Positions 634 through 8,124 of a DNA stretch of 64,000 bases are shown here, piece by piece. The stretch spans positions 248,001 to 312,000 of the forward strand of contig NZ_JAUYFF010000002.1 in the NCBI RefSeq assembly GCF_030691015.1. Reading direction: 5' to 3'. The position numbers were made by a program, and so were the translations under genes. This DNA comes from Sulfuricurvum sp. (GTDB lineage: Bacteria; Campylobacterota; Campylobacteria; Campylobacterales; Sulfurimonadaceae). The stretch's first letter is position 1; every line of letters begins with the position of its first letter. The notes beneath the pieces were generated by a model. It was not told the DNA's origin, did not search any database, and was given only the letters and a program-made list of their open reading frames with translations.

Positions 634-1675
634 TGTTATCCTTGATAAGTGTACTGACTCGATGGGCGCTTCCATGCTGCAAAAGCTCACGTAGTTTGAG
701 TGCATCATTAAAAAAAGCGGTTTTGTCCATTTGTTGATAAGCATTATACAGATTTTGAGCATTGACTTCGTTTTGGATGAATTCAGGATGCAAAGATCTG
801 CCGTATTTGTGTGAAAACAAGATGTTCCCTAACCCTACAAAATCCAGTTTTACTAACCTTTTAGCAATGGCGTAATCGAGCGATTTGGCTATGTAGGTGA
901 GTATAAACGGTGTACCGATAAGAGCTGCTTCTAACGTTGCTGTTCCGCTGCAGATAAAGGCAAAGTCGGATTCGGCAAGAGTTTTATGTGCTTCGTGCGT
1001 TATTTCAAAGCTTGAGATATCGCCGTAGAGTTCTGAAATTTGCTCACTCGTGAAATGAGAAGGGATAACGATGTAGGCGCGAGAATCTAACATTGCTCGC
1101 ACCTCCCTAAAAATCGGCATTAGCCTTTTTATCTCTCCAGGGCGACTTCCGGGCATAAAGGTTATTTTTCCGGTAGGGTCGAGTGATCTTTTTCGGATAG
1201 TAATTTCATCGAGAAGAGGATGCCCGACGTATTCGATAGGGGCGTCCTTGGAATAATAAGAAGGCTCAAAAGGGAGGATGGAACAAAGTTTTGTAATGGT
1301 TTTTTCCAGAACAGGTATCCGTTTTTTCTTCCATGCCCATGCTTGGGGGAGAATGTAATAGATGATCTCTTTTTCAGGATAGCGTTTACGGATCGCTTTG
1401 GCCAAAGGGAGATTAAATCCCGATGAATCGATCAGAAGCACTTTGTCTGCTGACGCGGCCAGTTCGACCATTTGATCTTTCAGTCGGAAGAAAAAAGGGA
1501 GCTTTTTGATCGCATCGACGAATCCCATGATGGAGGTGGAGCGTAAATCGACAATGCTCTCTCCAAGAGAGTTGTCAAATATTCCGCTTAAAACGATCTC
1601 TTCACCCAGCTCTTTGAGTAGATAGGAGAGGTGGACATTGGCAGAGTGCTCTAATGCACTGACGAGTAGTTTCAT
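626..1675 (-). CDS. lpxB: Lipid-A-disaccharide synthase LpxB
   Basis: The 349-aa product is a glycosyltransferase family 19 enzyme that condenses UDP-2,3-diacylglucosamine with lipid X to make the lipid A disaccharide at the inner face of the cytoplasmic membrane. The LpxB pattern is visible: an N-terminal Rossmann half, the mid-protein P-Q-A-W-A-W-K, the L-P-F-E-P and Y-V-G-H-P-L-L-D segment, the F-M-P-G-S-R-x-G-E-I loop, and near the C-terminus C-S-G-T-A-T-L-E-A-A for UDP-sugar binding. The length is a little under the usual 360-390 aa, typical of Campylobacterota. The start overlaps the upstream cytochrome stop as ATGA, so the genes are translationally coupled. Confidence 0.92.
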   Translation of the reverse strand: MKLLVSALEHSANVHLSYLLKELGEEIVLSGIFDNSLGESIVDLRSTSIMGFVDAIKKLPFFFRLKDQMVELAASADKVLLIDSSGFNLPLAKAIRKRYPEKEIIYYILPQAWAWKKKRIPVLEKTITKLCSILPFEPSYYSKDAPIEYVGHPLLDEITIRKRSLDPTGKITFMPGSRPGEIKRLMPIFREVRAMLDSRAYIVIPSHFTSEQISELYGDISSFEITHEAHKTLAESDFAFICSGTATLEAALIGTPFILTYIAKSLDYAIAKRLVKLDFVGLGNILFSHKYGRSLHPEFIQNEVNAQNLYNAYQQMDKTAFFNDALKLRELLQHGSAHRVSTLIKDNNV

Positions 1676-2028
1676 GATCCTCCGTCTCCTCGGGTACTTA
1701 AATCAGGTTTGTAATTGCTTTTGTTTTCGTTGTAATCGCTTAAAAATGTGGTTATTGCATCAATCTCTTTATCGCTAAGCTCCATGGCGAAAGGGATCAT
1801 TAGCTGGGATTGCTGGGTAGTTCCTTGTTTGGCACGGTACGATTTTAGTTTAGAGATTAAAAACGGTTTGCGCCGATAGGCAAGCGCAGGGTAAAGATTT
1901 GTTCCGCTCGCCGATATCCCATGACAGCCGTTACACCCTTTGGCAAAATAGAGATTTTTGCCCATTTTGTACATATCCTGAGTGCCATAGAGGAATAAAG
2001 GGAGTAAAAACAGAATGAACTTGAGCAC
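1672..2028 (-). CDS. Small periplasmic c-type cytochrome
   Basis: A 118-aa protein starting at GTG, with a hydrophobic N-terminal export signal (residues 1-14) and one haem c site, C-N-G-C-H at residues 32-36. A later M-I-P-F-A-M stretch (77-82) offers the distal methionine. This is the layout of class I monohaem cytochromes c that carry electrons in the periplasm, for example to a cbb3 oxidase. It overlaps lpxB by 4 bp (ATGA), an odd partnership because lpxB is a lipid A gene; this looks like operon economy, not shared function. The electron donor and acceptor cannot be told from sequence. Confidence 0.8.
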   Translation of the reverse strand: MLKFILFLLPLFLYGTQDMYKMGKNLYFAKGCNGCHGISASGTNLYPALAYRRKPFLISKLKSYRAKQGTTQQSQLMIPFAMELSDKEIDAITTFLSDYNENKSNYKPDLSTRGDGGS

Positions 2029-3839: not shown

Positions 3840-5243
3840 ATGAACATTTCAAGACGTGACTTACTCAAATTTGCCGGACTAAGCGCAGCAGCAGCTGCCG
3901 TTACCGGTTGTACGGCCGCTACAGGCGCAACTCCTGGTGCACAAGGTGCAGTTGGTAAAATGCTTGGTAAGCATCAAGTTGTTATTATCGGCGGTGGTTT
4001 CGGCGGTTTGACCGTTGCCAAAGAATTGAAAAAAATTGATCCTAAATTCGATGTTGCGATTATCGAAAAAAATGATAGCTTTATGTCGTGCCCGTTTTCA
4101 AACTGTAATCTTGGTGGTATCAAAGGGGTTAGTCTTAGTACATTGACTCATGACTATTCACAAGCGGTAGAGAAAAATGGTTATGGTATGTTAACTGCAG
4201 TAGTTACAGGAATTGACCGTGCCAATAAAGTAGTATATACGTCTAAAGGTAGCGTGGGTTACGATATCTTGGTTCTTGCACCGGGAATCGATTATAACTA
4301 TAAAGGGCAGTTCCCTACATGGTCAGATGCAAAAATTGCAAAAGCACGTCGTGCGGCTCCTGCGGCGTTGGTTCCGGGCGGCGAACACGTAGCGCTTGAT
4401 CGTATGGTTAAAAACATGGAAGACGGTGATGTTGTTATCACGGTTCCGGCAGGTAAATACCGTTGTCCTCCGGCTCCTTTTGAGCGTGCAAGTATGATTG
4501 CAAACTTCATGAAAAATGAAGGGCTTAAAGGAAAAGTCATTATTTTGAATGAAACAGCTGAAGTTGCTAAAGGGGCTGCGTTTAAAGAGACATGGAAAGA
4601 GTTGTATCCGGATGTCGTTGTTCATCAAGACAATTGTAAAATTGTTGATGTCGATTTTGACAAAAAAGAGATTACCTACGTTCAAACAGTATTCGCTAAT
4701 AAAGAAGATACTGAAGGCGTTAAAACGACTAAAACATTACCATATGGTATTTTCAACTTTATTCCTCACAATATGTCAAACCCGGTCATTGAGATGTCAG
4801 GTGTTGCGACGACTCCGGACGGATTCAAAAAAGTTAAAATGGCGACTAGCCCTGAAAAACCGGTTTCATTCCAAACAGCAACCGATGCAAGTGTTTATGC
4901 CGTCGGTGACGTTGTCGGACACGCTATCCCTCCAAGCGGTCAATCGGCTATCTGGTCAGGTAAAGAGTGTGCAAAAGAGGTCGCTCACGTTCTTCACGGT
5001 AAATCGTACAGTGTTGCATCGGCACTTCCGTACAAAAGTGCAAACGTGTGTTACTCTATGGTTAACGGAAACCCTGAAGAAGCGATTATGGTTAATCATG
5101 AGTTTATGGTTGCAGGTCCGGTTATCGGTTCTAAAGGAAGTGTTCCAAAAGGTGATGAAGCGAATAATAAATTCCGCTCAAGCGGTCTTGCAAAAGCAAC
5201 ACACGATTGGTATAAAGGCGCAATGCGCGATTTGTTTAACTAA
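3840..5243 (+). CDS. TAT-exported FccB-like flavoprotein (sulfide dehydrogenase flavin subunit)
   Basis: The 467-aa protein is a pyridine-nucleotide-disulfide oxidoreductase of the flavocytochrome c sulfide dehydrogenase (FCSD/SoxF) type. A twin-arginine signal, S-R-R-D-L-L-K, opens the protein and V-T-G-C24 may be a lipobox. The dinucleotide fold is V-V-I-I-G-G-G-F-G-G at about 47-56. C84 in M-S-C-P-F-S-N lies where FccB binds FAD covalently, and C209 (Y-R-C-P-P-A-P-F-E-R-A-S) and C404 (A-N-V-C-Y-S-M-V) match the redox-active cysteine pair. A-V-G-D-V-V-G near 354-360 is the second FAD motif. The ribosome site AAGGAG sits 7-8 bases before ATG. The expected dihaem partner FccA is absent; a Rieske protein and a cytochrome c'-like protein follow. 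Confidence 0.85.
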   Translation: MNISRRDLLKFAGLSAAAAAVTGCTAATGATPGAQGAVGKMLGKHQVVIIGGGFGGLTVAKELKKIDPKFDVAIIEKNDSFMSCPFSNCNLGGIKGVSLSTLTHDYSQAVEKNGYGMLTAVVTGIDRANKVVYTSKGSVGYDILVLAPGIDYNYKGQFPTWSDAKIAKARRAAPAALVPGGEHVALDRMVKNMEDGDVVITVPAGKYRCPPAPFERASMIANFMKNEGLKGKVIILNETAEVAKGAAFKETWKELYPDVVVHQDNCKIVDVDFDKKEITYVQTVFANKEDTEGVKTTKTLPYGIFNFIPHNMSNPVIEMSGVATTPDGFKKVKMATSPEKPVSFQTATDASVYAVGDVVGHAIPPSGQSAIWSGKECAKEVAHVLHGKSYSVASALPYKSANVCYSMVNGNPEEAIMVNHEFMVAGPVIGSKGSVPKGDEANNKFRSSGLAKATHDWYKGAMRDLFN

Positions 5244-5327
5244 TACCGGTTATCTTACTCTCCACTCGGAGAGTAAAAGAAAAATCTGCTACACTTACTA
5301 CGTAAAATCATTCACACGGAAAACATT

Positions 5328-6056
5328 ATGGATAGAAGAAATTTTTTAAAAGTGGTTGCTGCAAGTGCAACAGTAATGGCTGTAAGCCCTTCGATGATTC
5401 GGGGAAATCTGTATGCAGCAGATGGAACGTTATACAAAGCGTATGACAAAGTTCAGCTTGTAGATGCTGCAGGAAAACCGATCAAAGCTTCGGCTTTGGC
5501 AAAAGAGGTCACTTATATTTTCAACTACCCTCATGCTTCAACCCCTTGTATGTTGATTAACTTGCCTAAGGCAACTTCTAAAGAGGTAGAGTTAACATCG
5601 GAGAACGGAGAAAAATACGTCTGGAAAAGCGGTGTCGGAAAAGAGGGCACTGTTGTTGCGTATGTAGCAATCTGTACCCATCAGATGACGCATCCGACTC
5701 CGAATGACAGTTTCATTACCTATGTCCCTACTGCTAAAAAAACGATGGCGTATGATAAAAGCGGAATTATCGTCTGCTCTTCACACCTTTCTGCTTTTGA
5801 CGCGGGTGCGGGTGCCAAAGTATTAGGCGGTGCGGCAACACAACCGCTGAATTCAGTTGTTCTTGAACACGCTGCTGATGATACTCTCTGGGCAGTCGGT
5901 ATTTTAGGGTCTGATAAATTTCAAGATTATTTCAAAAGTTTCCGTCCTGAGCTAAAAGAGTTTTACGGTGGACCTGCGGAAGCTAAAAAACTGGTTTCAA
6001 TCTCGGCTAAAACGGTTAAGATTACTGAATTTTCCAAAGAAATTATCCAATACTAA
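5328..6056 (+). CDS. TAT-exported Rieske [2Fe-2S] protein
   Basis: A 242-aa protein with a twin-arginine signal (D-R-R-N-F-L-K) and the two Rieske cluster boxes: C116-T-H118 and C150-S-S-H153. The boxes are C-x-H and C-x-x-H, so both Cys and both His ligands are present. The overall size resembles periplasmic Rieske subunits that pair with oxidoreductases (as in arsenite oxidase small subunits) more than the bc1 Rieske protein, which is membrane-anchored with petB and petC beside it. It lies 84 bp after the FccB-like gene and 11 bp before a haem protein, so it probably takes electrons from the flavoprotein. That electron path is inferred from gene order. Confidence 0.85.
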   Translation: MDRRNFLKVVAASATVMAVSPSMIRGNLYAADGTLYKAYDKVQLVDAAGKPIKASALAKEVTYIFNYPHASTPCMLINLPKATSKEVELTSENGEKYVWKSGVGKEGTVVAYVAICTHQMTHPTPNDSFITYVPTAKKTMAYDKSGIIVCSSHLSAFDAGAGAKVLGGAATQPLNSVVLEHAADDTLWAVGILGSDKFQDYFKSFRPELKEFYGGPAEAKKLVSISAKTVKITEFSKEIIQY

Positions 6057-6067
6057 AAGGGGTTGCT

Positions 6068-6478
6068 ATGAAAAAAAGTTTTACATTATTGGCTCTTTCA
6101 TTTTTGCTCGCAGGGTCGCTCAATGCTGCGGGTACGGATCATAGAACTATGCTTATGAAAGATATGCGTACGATGTTGGACGCTATGGAGGATATCCAGC
6201 GCGGAGGCTTATACAGCTCAACTGAGGATATGAAAGCGGGGATTAAAAAGCTTCAAGGAACGCTTAAAACACTTGAGAGCGAAGAGATTAAATTTATTCT
6301 CCCTAAAGATCAGGTATATGCGTACAAATTTGCTCAAAAAACAGCACATATGCTTCGTCTCTATTCGGATGATATGATCGTTGCGATTGAAGCAGGACGT
6401 ATGGATGAGGCGTTGGAAGATTACAGTCAACTCCTTAAGCAATGTACATCATGTCATATCCGTATTCGTAACTGGTAA
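6068..6478 (+). CDS. Cytochrome c'-like (c-556 class) periplasmic protein
   Basis: A 136-aa protein with a Sec signal (M-K-K-S-F-T-L-L-A-L ... L-N-A) and one haem c site, C-T-S-C-H at 126-130, only six residues from the C-terminus. A haem motif at the very end of a helical protein is typical of class II cytochromes c (c' and c-556), four-helix bundles. M28, M30 and nearby residues at the start of helix A could provide a sixth ligand. It follows the Rieske gene by 11 bp with AAAGGGG as ribosome site. It is the likely electron exit of the flavoprotein-Rieske-haem group. Confidence 0.82.
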   Translation: MKKSFTLLALSFLLAGSLNAAGTDHRTMLMKDMRTMLDAMEDIQRGGLYSSTEDMKAGIKKLQGTLKTLESEEIKFILPKDQVYAYKFAQKTAHMLRLYSDDMIVAIEAGRMDEALEDYSQLLKQCTSCHIRIRNW

Positions 6479-6756: not shown

Positions 6757-8124
6757 ATGAAATTAGGAAAACTTAGTCTAGTCGCTGTAATGGCTCTTGG
6801 AACAAGCGCGTTCGCTATCGATAACGTAAAAGTAAACGGTGAAGCAAAAGTATGGTATCAAACATCTGAGTACAGTGGAGCAGGTGCTGGAACAGGTGTT
6901 GGATCTCAATCAGAGCAAGATTTCTTTGATAATAGTACTAACTCAGTAGCTGAAGTTAAATTAAGTGTTGGTGCTACAGCTGATTTGCTTCAAAACTTAA
7001 GCGCAGGTATTAAAGTTACTGCACTTAGCACACTTGGTCTTGAAAACAATATGGTTGGAGCTGTTCCGGCTGCAAAATACAACAATGACGGTACTACTGC
7101 AGGTGCAGCGCAACTTGATGACCAATCATGGACTGAAGAATTGTATTTAGCGTACACTATGGGCAAAACAACGGCTAAAATCGGTCGCCAAGCATTAAGT
7201 ACTCCATTAGCGTTTACTGAAAACTGGAATGTTGTTGACAATACATTTGAAGCAGCCGTTCTTTTAAATAACGACCTTCCTGATACAACATTGGTTGCTG
7301 CCTATGTTGGTAAGCACAATGGTGTCGGATTGCTTCAAGCAAGTGCAACTGCTGCTACACACGGTGGAAGAGGTTCTACTGTTGCACAAGGCGGTACATT
7401 TAGCAATTTCGGAACTGAAGGTGCGTATGCTGCCGGTGCTATCAATAAATCTGTACCGAATACAACACTTCAAGCATGGTATTACAATGTAAGTGCGATT
7501 GCTGATGCATATTGGTTGCAAGCGGATGCTAAACTTATGGATATGGTAACGATCGGTGTACAATATGCCGGTATGGATCCAAAACTTTCACGTGCTACAG
7601 TAATTGCGGCAGGATATGTGGCTGGTAATGAAGATTTGGCAGTAGTCAAAAAATCTTCAGATGCATTTGCAGTTAAAGCAGCGGTAGATGTTGCAGGTGT
7701 AAACCTTTATGCAGCGTACTCAGAAGTAAGTGATGGTACTCTTGGATTTGCAAATACTGCAACGGGTGATAAATCAAGCCTATATACTGCACTCGGAAGT
7801 GTTTATATGGACGGTGAAATCGCTGCTGCACCAGATACTGATACATGGAAAATCGGTGCATCAACAAAAATGATTCCTGGTGTAACTCTTTCTGCAAGTT
7901 ATGCAGAAGCAGAAGTTGGAGCTAATGCTAATGCACTTGCTGCTGTTGGTGGAGCTTATACTATTAATACTGATTTCACAGCATGGGATGTTATTGCTGC
8001 AACGAAAGTTGGACCGGTTGATTTGACAGCTATCTATACTCAGTTTGATAAAGATGTAAAAGCTACAGATACAACTGATAAAACGACTGATACTATCCGT
8101 ATCATCGCTTCTTTGAAATTCTAA
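6757..8124 (+). CDS. Outer-membrane porin, Campylobacterota MOMP/OprD-like
   Basis: A 455-aa protein with a 20-residue signal peptide ending T-S-A-F-A, then alternating beta-strand sequence rich in Gly, Ala, Thr and Tyr, and a terminal Phe (I-A-S-L-K-F), the usual signature for BAM-dependent outer-membrane insertion. V-K-V-N-G-E-A-K-V-W-Y-Q right after the signal resembles the first strand of Campylobacterota porins. About 16-18 strands would be expected. A long AT-rich leader of 278 bp precedes it with a good AAGGAG ribosome site. It is monocistronic, followed by hairpins. Substrate preference cannot be judged. Confidence 0.85.
   Translation: MKLGKLSLVAVMALGTSAFAIDNVKVNGEAKVWYQTSEYSGAGAGTGVGSQSEQDFFDNSTNSVAEVKLSVGATADLLQNLSAGIKVTALSTLGLENNMVGAVPAAKYNNDGTTAGAAQLDDQSWTEELYLAYTMGKTTAKIGRQALSTPLAFTENWNVVDNTFEAAVLLNNDLPDTTLVAAYVGKHNGVGLLQASATAATHGGRGSTVAQGGTFSNFGTEGAYAAGAINKSVPNTTLQAWYYNVSAIADAYWLQADAKLMDMVTIGVQYAGMDPKLSRATVIAAGYVAGNEDLAVVKKSSDAFAVKAAVDVAGVNLYAAYSEVSDGTLGFANTATGDKSSLYTALGSVYMDGEIAAAPDTDTWKIGASTKMIPGVTLSASYAEAEVGANANALAAVGGAYTINTDFTAWDVIAATKVGPVDLTAIYTQFDKDVKATDTTDKTTDTIRIIASLKF

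Follow-up and report, generated by a model that had tools for sequence, protein, structure and literature searches.

Gene content and sequence features of the locus

Three collinear genes in the window (the whole stretch of 64,000 nucleotides analysed here) encode a flavoprotein of the flavocytochrome c sulfide dehydrogenase (FCSD) family, a Rieske protein and a small c-type cytochrome, with the coordinates given in Table 1.

Table 1. Features of the flavoprotein-Rieske-cytochrome cluster
Feature	Position in window	Strand	Basis
FCSD-family flavoprotein, 467 aa	3840-5243	+	Pfam FCSD_central, PDB matches, tree
TAT signal SRRDLLK with terminal lipobox VTGC (Cys24)	3840-3911	+	Pfam TAT_signal, 1.3e-4
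Cys84 codon; aligns with covalent-FAD Cys of FccB	4089-4091	+	PDB alignment
Cys209 codon, first redox-disulfide Cys, in RCPPAPFERAS	4464-4466	+	PDB alignment
Cys404 codon, second redox-disulfide Cys, in NVCYSM	5049-5051	+	PDB alignment
Hairpin TTACTCTCC-ACTC-GGAGAGTAA	5255-5276	+	z = -3.1 in window
TGCTACACT, extended -10-like element, 41 bp before Rieske start	5287-5295	+	Conservation among loci
TAT-exported Rieske [2Fe-2S] protein, 242 aa, SoxL2/SoxF/AioB-type	5328-6056	+	Profile and sequence similarity
Rieske ligands C116-T-H118	5673-5681	+	26/26 homologues
Rieske ligands C150-S-S-H153	5775-5786	+	26/26 homologues
Class II-like monohaem c-type cytochrome, 136 aa, Sec signal	6068-6478	+	Motif, fold prediction, weak Pfam match
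Haem-binding motif C126-T-S-C-H130, near C-terminus	6443-6457	+	Sequence

The flavoprotein scored 88.4 bits against Pfam FCSD_central (cut-off 27) and 23.5 bits against the C-terminal domain FCSD-flav_bind (cut-off 26). Its closest solved relatives in a PDB search were 5n1t (2.5e-50), 3vrd (1.9e-37) and 1fcd (9.5e-36); these are FCSD structures (FccAB), from Allochromatium, Thermochromatium and Thioalkalivibrio. Cys84, Cys209 and Cys404 are in register with the cysteine that links FAD and the redox pair in 3vrd and 5n1t, and Glu215 is situated six residues past Cys209, as in FccB. The FCSD-like flavoprotein with Cys84 and a C209/C404 pair described in the first-pass annotation is thus borne out by the Pfam and PDB matches and by the aligned columns, and FAD is probably attached covalently to Cys84, as judged from the aligned cysteine. 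Twin-arginine motif and lipobox are both present in 17 of the 19 flavoproteins of the same clade (clade I, see below), on the basis of which the protein is probably exported and tethered to the membrane as a lipoprotein, a feature absent from the earlier annotation.

In the Rieske protein, the CxH and CxxH ligand pattern is complete, with C116, H118, C150 and H153 invariant among 26 homologues; the two ligand pairs are separated by an insert, and the additional disulfide-forming cysteines that bc1 Rieske proteins have are absent. The score with Pfam Rieske was 20.0 bits, slightly under the cut-off of 20.3. SoxL2, Sulfolobus SoxF and AioB are the nearest families by sequence, with the cut-off of the SoxL2 equivalog (TIGR03171) missed by far (86.9 versus 582.1 bits). 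The source genome encodes a single Rieske protein of this family, and a tblastn search against plasmids returned one distant match, in Cupriavidus. An AlphaFold model of the protein had a pLDDT of 43 and was left unused.

The cytochrome contains a single CxxCH and is matched weakly by Pfam Cytochrom_C_2 (E 0.009; 17.4 bits, under the cut-off of 26.5). AlphaFold predicts a four-helix bundle for it (pLDDT 83), and such a bundle with a C-terminal CxxCH is as in class II cytochrome c (cytochrome c'). The nearest folds to the model were cytochrome b562 and c', all with E > 0.03, and a PDB profile search with the sequence gave no match. A paralogue is encoded directly 3' of petABC (bc1) in the source genome (G000:C19:193056-193448; L155 3054-3449), and likewise in genomes G137 and G194; this position right after petABC fits a role in the cytochrome pool.

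The flavoprotein and Rieske genes are 84 bp apart (5244-5327). The gap holds a hairpin that varies in sequence across the loci of relatives but is constant in its presence, and an extended -10-like TGCTANANT element is found 39-44 bp 5' of the Rieske start in 18 of 19 loci (shuffle rate 0.009). Sigma-70 and terminator scans of the window region performed no better than on shuffled sequences. Hairpin and conserved TGCTACACT suggest a promoter of their own for the Rieske and cytochrome genes, which we consider probable and which makes the locus a cluster rather than a single simple operon. The earlier placement of all three genes in the same operon therefore holds for their collinearity, with a TAT-exported Rieske protein followed by a single-haem cytochrome, but calls for caution as to a common transcript, given the gap and its putative promoter. 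In some related loci, the gap contains longer inserts resembling dispersed repeats.

No gene for a mono- or dihaem class I FccA adjoins the flavoprotein gene. The class I cytochrome gene nearest to the trio (1672-2028, minus strand, monohaem) overlaps lpxB by 4 bp; it is conserved together with lpxB in Sulfuricurvum but is absent beside the trio in loci L014 and L016. The source genome (2.33 Mb in 19 contigs, nearly complete) encodes one FCSD flavoprotein and yields 14 matches to PF13442 (class I cytochrome), of which CcoP and cytochrome c1 of the bc1 complex alone carry two haems; a dihaem FccA was not among these matches, and an FccA hidden elsewhere in the genome, which might have paired with the flavoprotein, was rejected on these grounds. 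The annotation's statement that the normal dihaem partner is missing is supported for this genome but too narrowly worded: canonical FccB-type genes in the order have monohaem FccA-like partners of ~100 aa, so that the contrast is with FccA generally and not with the dihaem form alone. The source genome also encodes a number of small cytochromes of class I that could serve as electron acceptors, one of them 32% identical to a canonical Campylobacterota FccA.

Conservation of the cluster

The full trio is found in 18 of 21 loci of the Sulfuricurvum group, with the remaining three cut by contig ends, and is retained in L014 and L016 next to different upstream genes. Across a wider sample of the order (299 genomes), 39 full-length Rieske genes of the window family are spread over 37 genomes, and all 39 adjoin an FCSD flavoprotein gene: for 37 this gene is on the same strand and no more than 4 kb away, and two, which at first appeared to be without a flavoprotein, have its C-terminus in a gene cut by the contig end and were rejected as exceptions. 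The chance expectation for this adjacency is ~0.2 of 39, estimated by assuming ~1.3 flavoproteins of this kind in a genome of 2.1 Mb. The gene order that the first-pass annotation proposed to look for in other Campylobacterota thus exists there, and the conservation it presumed for both neighbours holds throughout for the Rieske gene but only partly for the haem gene, as the class II cytochrome adjoins the Rieske gene in 23 of the 39 loci, a looser linkage than that between Rieske protein and flavoprotein. Neither of the outcomes that the annotation had named as contradicting it was observed. In the wider lineage, many flavoproteins lack a nearby Rieske gene, and hence not all of them require it, and the absence of both genes from another genome of the same genus (G288) marks the cluster as accessory. 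An Opr-family porin gene (6757-8124) adjoins the trio in most Sulfuricurvum loci and is inverted in L016; it is possibly a coincidental neighbour.

Phylogeny and partner exchange

A fully supported branch of the flavoprotein tree divides the FccA-linked flavoproteins and the FccB chains of the PDB from a Campylobacterota lineage to whose clade I the window flavoprotein belongs. Within this lineage, a Rieske gene neighbours the flavoprotein gene in two distinct clades, namely in 17 of 19 rows of clade I (a count that marks locus L020 as lacking a Rieske gene through an ORF-caller artefact, the gene being present), in 12 of 29 rows of clade II, and in one outlying row. Mapped onto the Rieske tree, the flavoprotein clades require five switches, at least two of them on well-supported branches, and one supported Rieske clade of 11 rows mixes clade I and clade II partners. 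At the same chromosomal spot, genome G170 has a clade II flavoprotein with Gly for Cys84 beside the orthologous Rieske and cytochrome genes. With one Rieske family accompanying two divergent flavoprotein clades, the Rieske protein (together with the cytochrome) looks like an exchangeable electron-acceptor module shared by FCSD flavoproteins. Clade II flavoproteins of L055 (3443-4801), L062, L093 and L110 have Gly at the position of the FAD-linking Cys but retain both redox cysteines, and a set of FccA-linked flavoproteins in groups f7, f9 and f16 has Pro at this position.

Association with soxYZ

Some flavoprotein-Rieske clusters of relatives include SoxY and SoxZ genes, as confirmed with Pfam (among them L062, L085, L092, L093 and L159). 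A SoxY gene lies within 3.5 kb of the Rieske gene in 13 of the 299 genomes, counted among the 117 listed of 127 SoxY genomes. Among the matches listed, none of these 13 encodes SoxC linked to SoxY or a Mo-co_dimer protein of any kind, compared to SoxCD in 73 of the remaining 104 listed (Fisher p 8e-7, computed on genomes that are not independent). The 13 belong to five families, and some of the genomes compared are drafts. The soxYZ-linked clusters mostly have a clade II flavoprotein, in some cases with Gly for Cys84. The window cluster is without soxYZ; the soxXYZAB genes of the source genome are on another contig (C4), with no SoxC gene beside them. The pattern looks as if the flavoprotein-Rieske module had replaced SoxCD, and no mention of it was found in the literature searched.

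Relation to known systems

With FccAB, the window cluster shares the flavoprotein family, TAT export, the FAD-linking Cys, the redox disulfide and the active-site Glu motif; it differs in having a Rieske protein and a class II cytochrome but no FccA, in the predicted lipoprotein character, and in a clade apart from FccA-linked FccB. SoxF of Paracoccus and Chlorobaculum, a monomeric sulfide dehydrogenase, is likewise an FCSD-type flavoprotein without a tightly bound FccA, but is encoded in sox operons, whereas the window flavoprotein gene is outside the sox cluster. We know of no Rieske partner for SoxF of Paracoccus or Chlorobaculum. SoxL2, Sulfolobus SoxF and AioB resemble the window Rieske protein as its closest families by profile and in their TAT signal, but have a different partner enzyme.

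The closest precedent is a dhsU1-Rieske-dhsU2-sox cluster with a cytochrome gene nearby, described in 2012 for an uncultured Aquificae bacterium near Sulfurihydrogenibium, with one of its two flavoproteins, in recombinant form, showing sulfide dehydrogenase activity as a monomer (PMC3504083). Going by the published description, it resembles the window in that a Rieske gene is flanked by genes for FCSD-type flavoproteins with a cytochrome nearby, and differs in having two flavoproteins and downstream sox genes; the class of its cytochrome is unstated. The FCSD-type genes of Sulfuricurvum and other Campylobacterota have been reported as 'Fcc' (PMC4288042, PMC12403661) and one Campylobacterota FCSD-type gene as non-canonical (PMC10066037); a word search for Rieske in PMC12403661 and PMC10066037 had no hits, and no description of an FCSD-Rieske pairing in Campylobacterota was found in the literature searched. 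The annotation had spoken of a new arrangement of the FCSD class. In view of PMC3504083, the neighbourhood itself is not new; new here are the obligate Rieske-FCSD linkage across Campylobacterota, the partner exchange, and the occurrence of cluster-soxYZ without SoxCD.

Proposed function

We consider it fairly probable that the product of the cluster is an FCSD-superfamily sulfide dehydrogenase of the periplasm, with a two-protein acceptor module taking the place of FccA. From the genes, motifs and genomic linkage observed, we infer substrate, flavin attachment, electron path and physical association as follows. The flavoprotein, which is probably exported by TAT as a lipoprotein and carries FAD on Cys84, would oxidise sulfide (or sulfane or polysulfide) to zero-valent sulfur, formed at the Cys209/Cys404 disulfide. 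Electrons would pass singly to the soluble Rieske protein, which would hand them via the class II cytochrome c to the cytochrome c pool serving the cbb3 oxidase; the three proteins may form a complex. This reading is supported by the FCSD family membership with its catalytic cysteines, the conserved trio (18/21), the unbroken Rieske linkage (39/39), the partner exchange and the lack of a dihaem FccA, and the activity of the Aquificae flavoprotein as a monomer (PMC3504083) was counted in favour of a sulfide dehydrogenase. Against it count the presence of the cytochrome beside the Rieske gene in only 23 of 39 loci, and the hairpin and promoter-like element, which suggest that the Rieske-cytochrome pair can be expressed separately. 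Also against it are the numerous flavoproteins of the wider lineage without a Rieske gene close by, and the score of FCSD-flav_bind slightly under its cut-off.

That same putative promoter would suit a flavoprotein acting alone, like monomeric SoxF or DhsU1, and passing its electrons directly to a soluble class I cytochrome c, with the Rieske protein and class II cytochrome otherwise employed. Recombinant DhsU1 and SoxF have been reported to be active as monomers (PMC3504083), and small class I cytochromes, including the FccA-like one, are at hand in the genome; but in 299 genomes the Rieske gene never occurs without an adjoining FCSD flavoprotein gene, even after exchange of the flavoprotein clade, and we hold this alternative to be rather unlikely. 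That the Rieske protein belongs to an arsenite oxidase-like or alternative bc-type enzyme as its small subunit, and stands here by chance, is hinted at by its similarity to AioB and SoxF/SoxL2. This reading was rejected as very improbable, as there is no molybdoenzyme or cytochrome b gene nearby and bc1 is encoded elsewhere in the genome by an operon that includes a Rieske gene for it, and the invariable FCSD linkage already disfavours it.

The substrate may instead be sulfur carried on SoxYZ or another carrier, the module being a sulfane dehydrogenase and the window copy working with SoxYZ encoded elsewhere. The 13 genomes of five families in which soxYZ joins the cluster and SoxCD is lacking among the matches listed point in this direction, as does the soxXYZAB of the source genome with no adjacent SoxC. 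However, the 13 genomes are not independent, soxYZ is missing from the window cluster, and the window flavoprotein, a member of clade I, has retained the covalent Cys as well as the CPPxPxER motif, while soxYZ-linked flavoproteins are mostly of clade II; for the window we regard a carrier-bound substrate as quite unlikely. A version spanning both situations, in which the trio module is a Mo-free substitute for SoxCD in several Campylobacterota lineages (a sulfane dehydrogenase on SoxYZ-bound sulfur) and the window copy is closely related but adapted to free sulfide or polysulfide, is speculative and in our estimate rather improbable.

As a rule, SQR is credited with sulfide oxidation in Campylobacterota, or else 'Fcc', which is called from the flavoprotein gene alone. 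Should the Rieske protein be the electron acceptor, as in the sulfide dehydrogenase with a two-protein acceptor module favoured above, annotated 'Fcc' genes without FccA would be explained, and electrons from sulfide would enter the chain at a different point, by a route that may have been overlooked. On the same premise, the sox-linked version of the cluster suggests, in a form open to experiment, how SoxYZ-bound sulfur might be oxidised in lineages that lack SoxCD.
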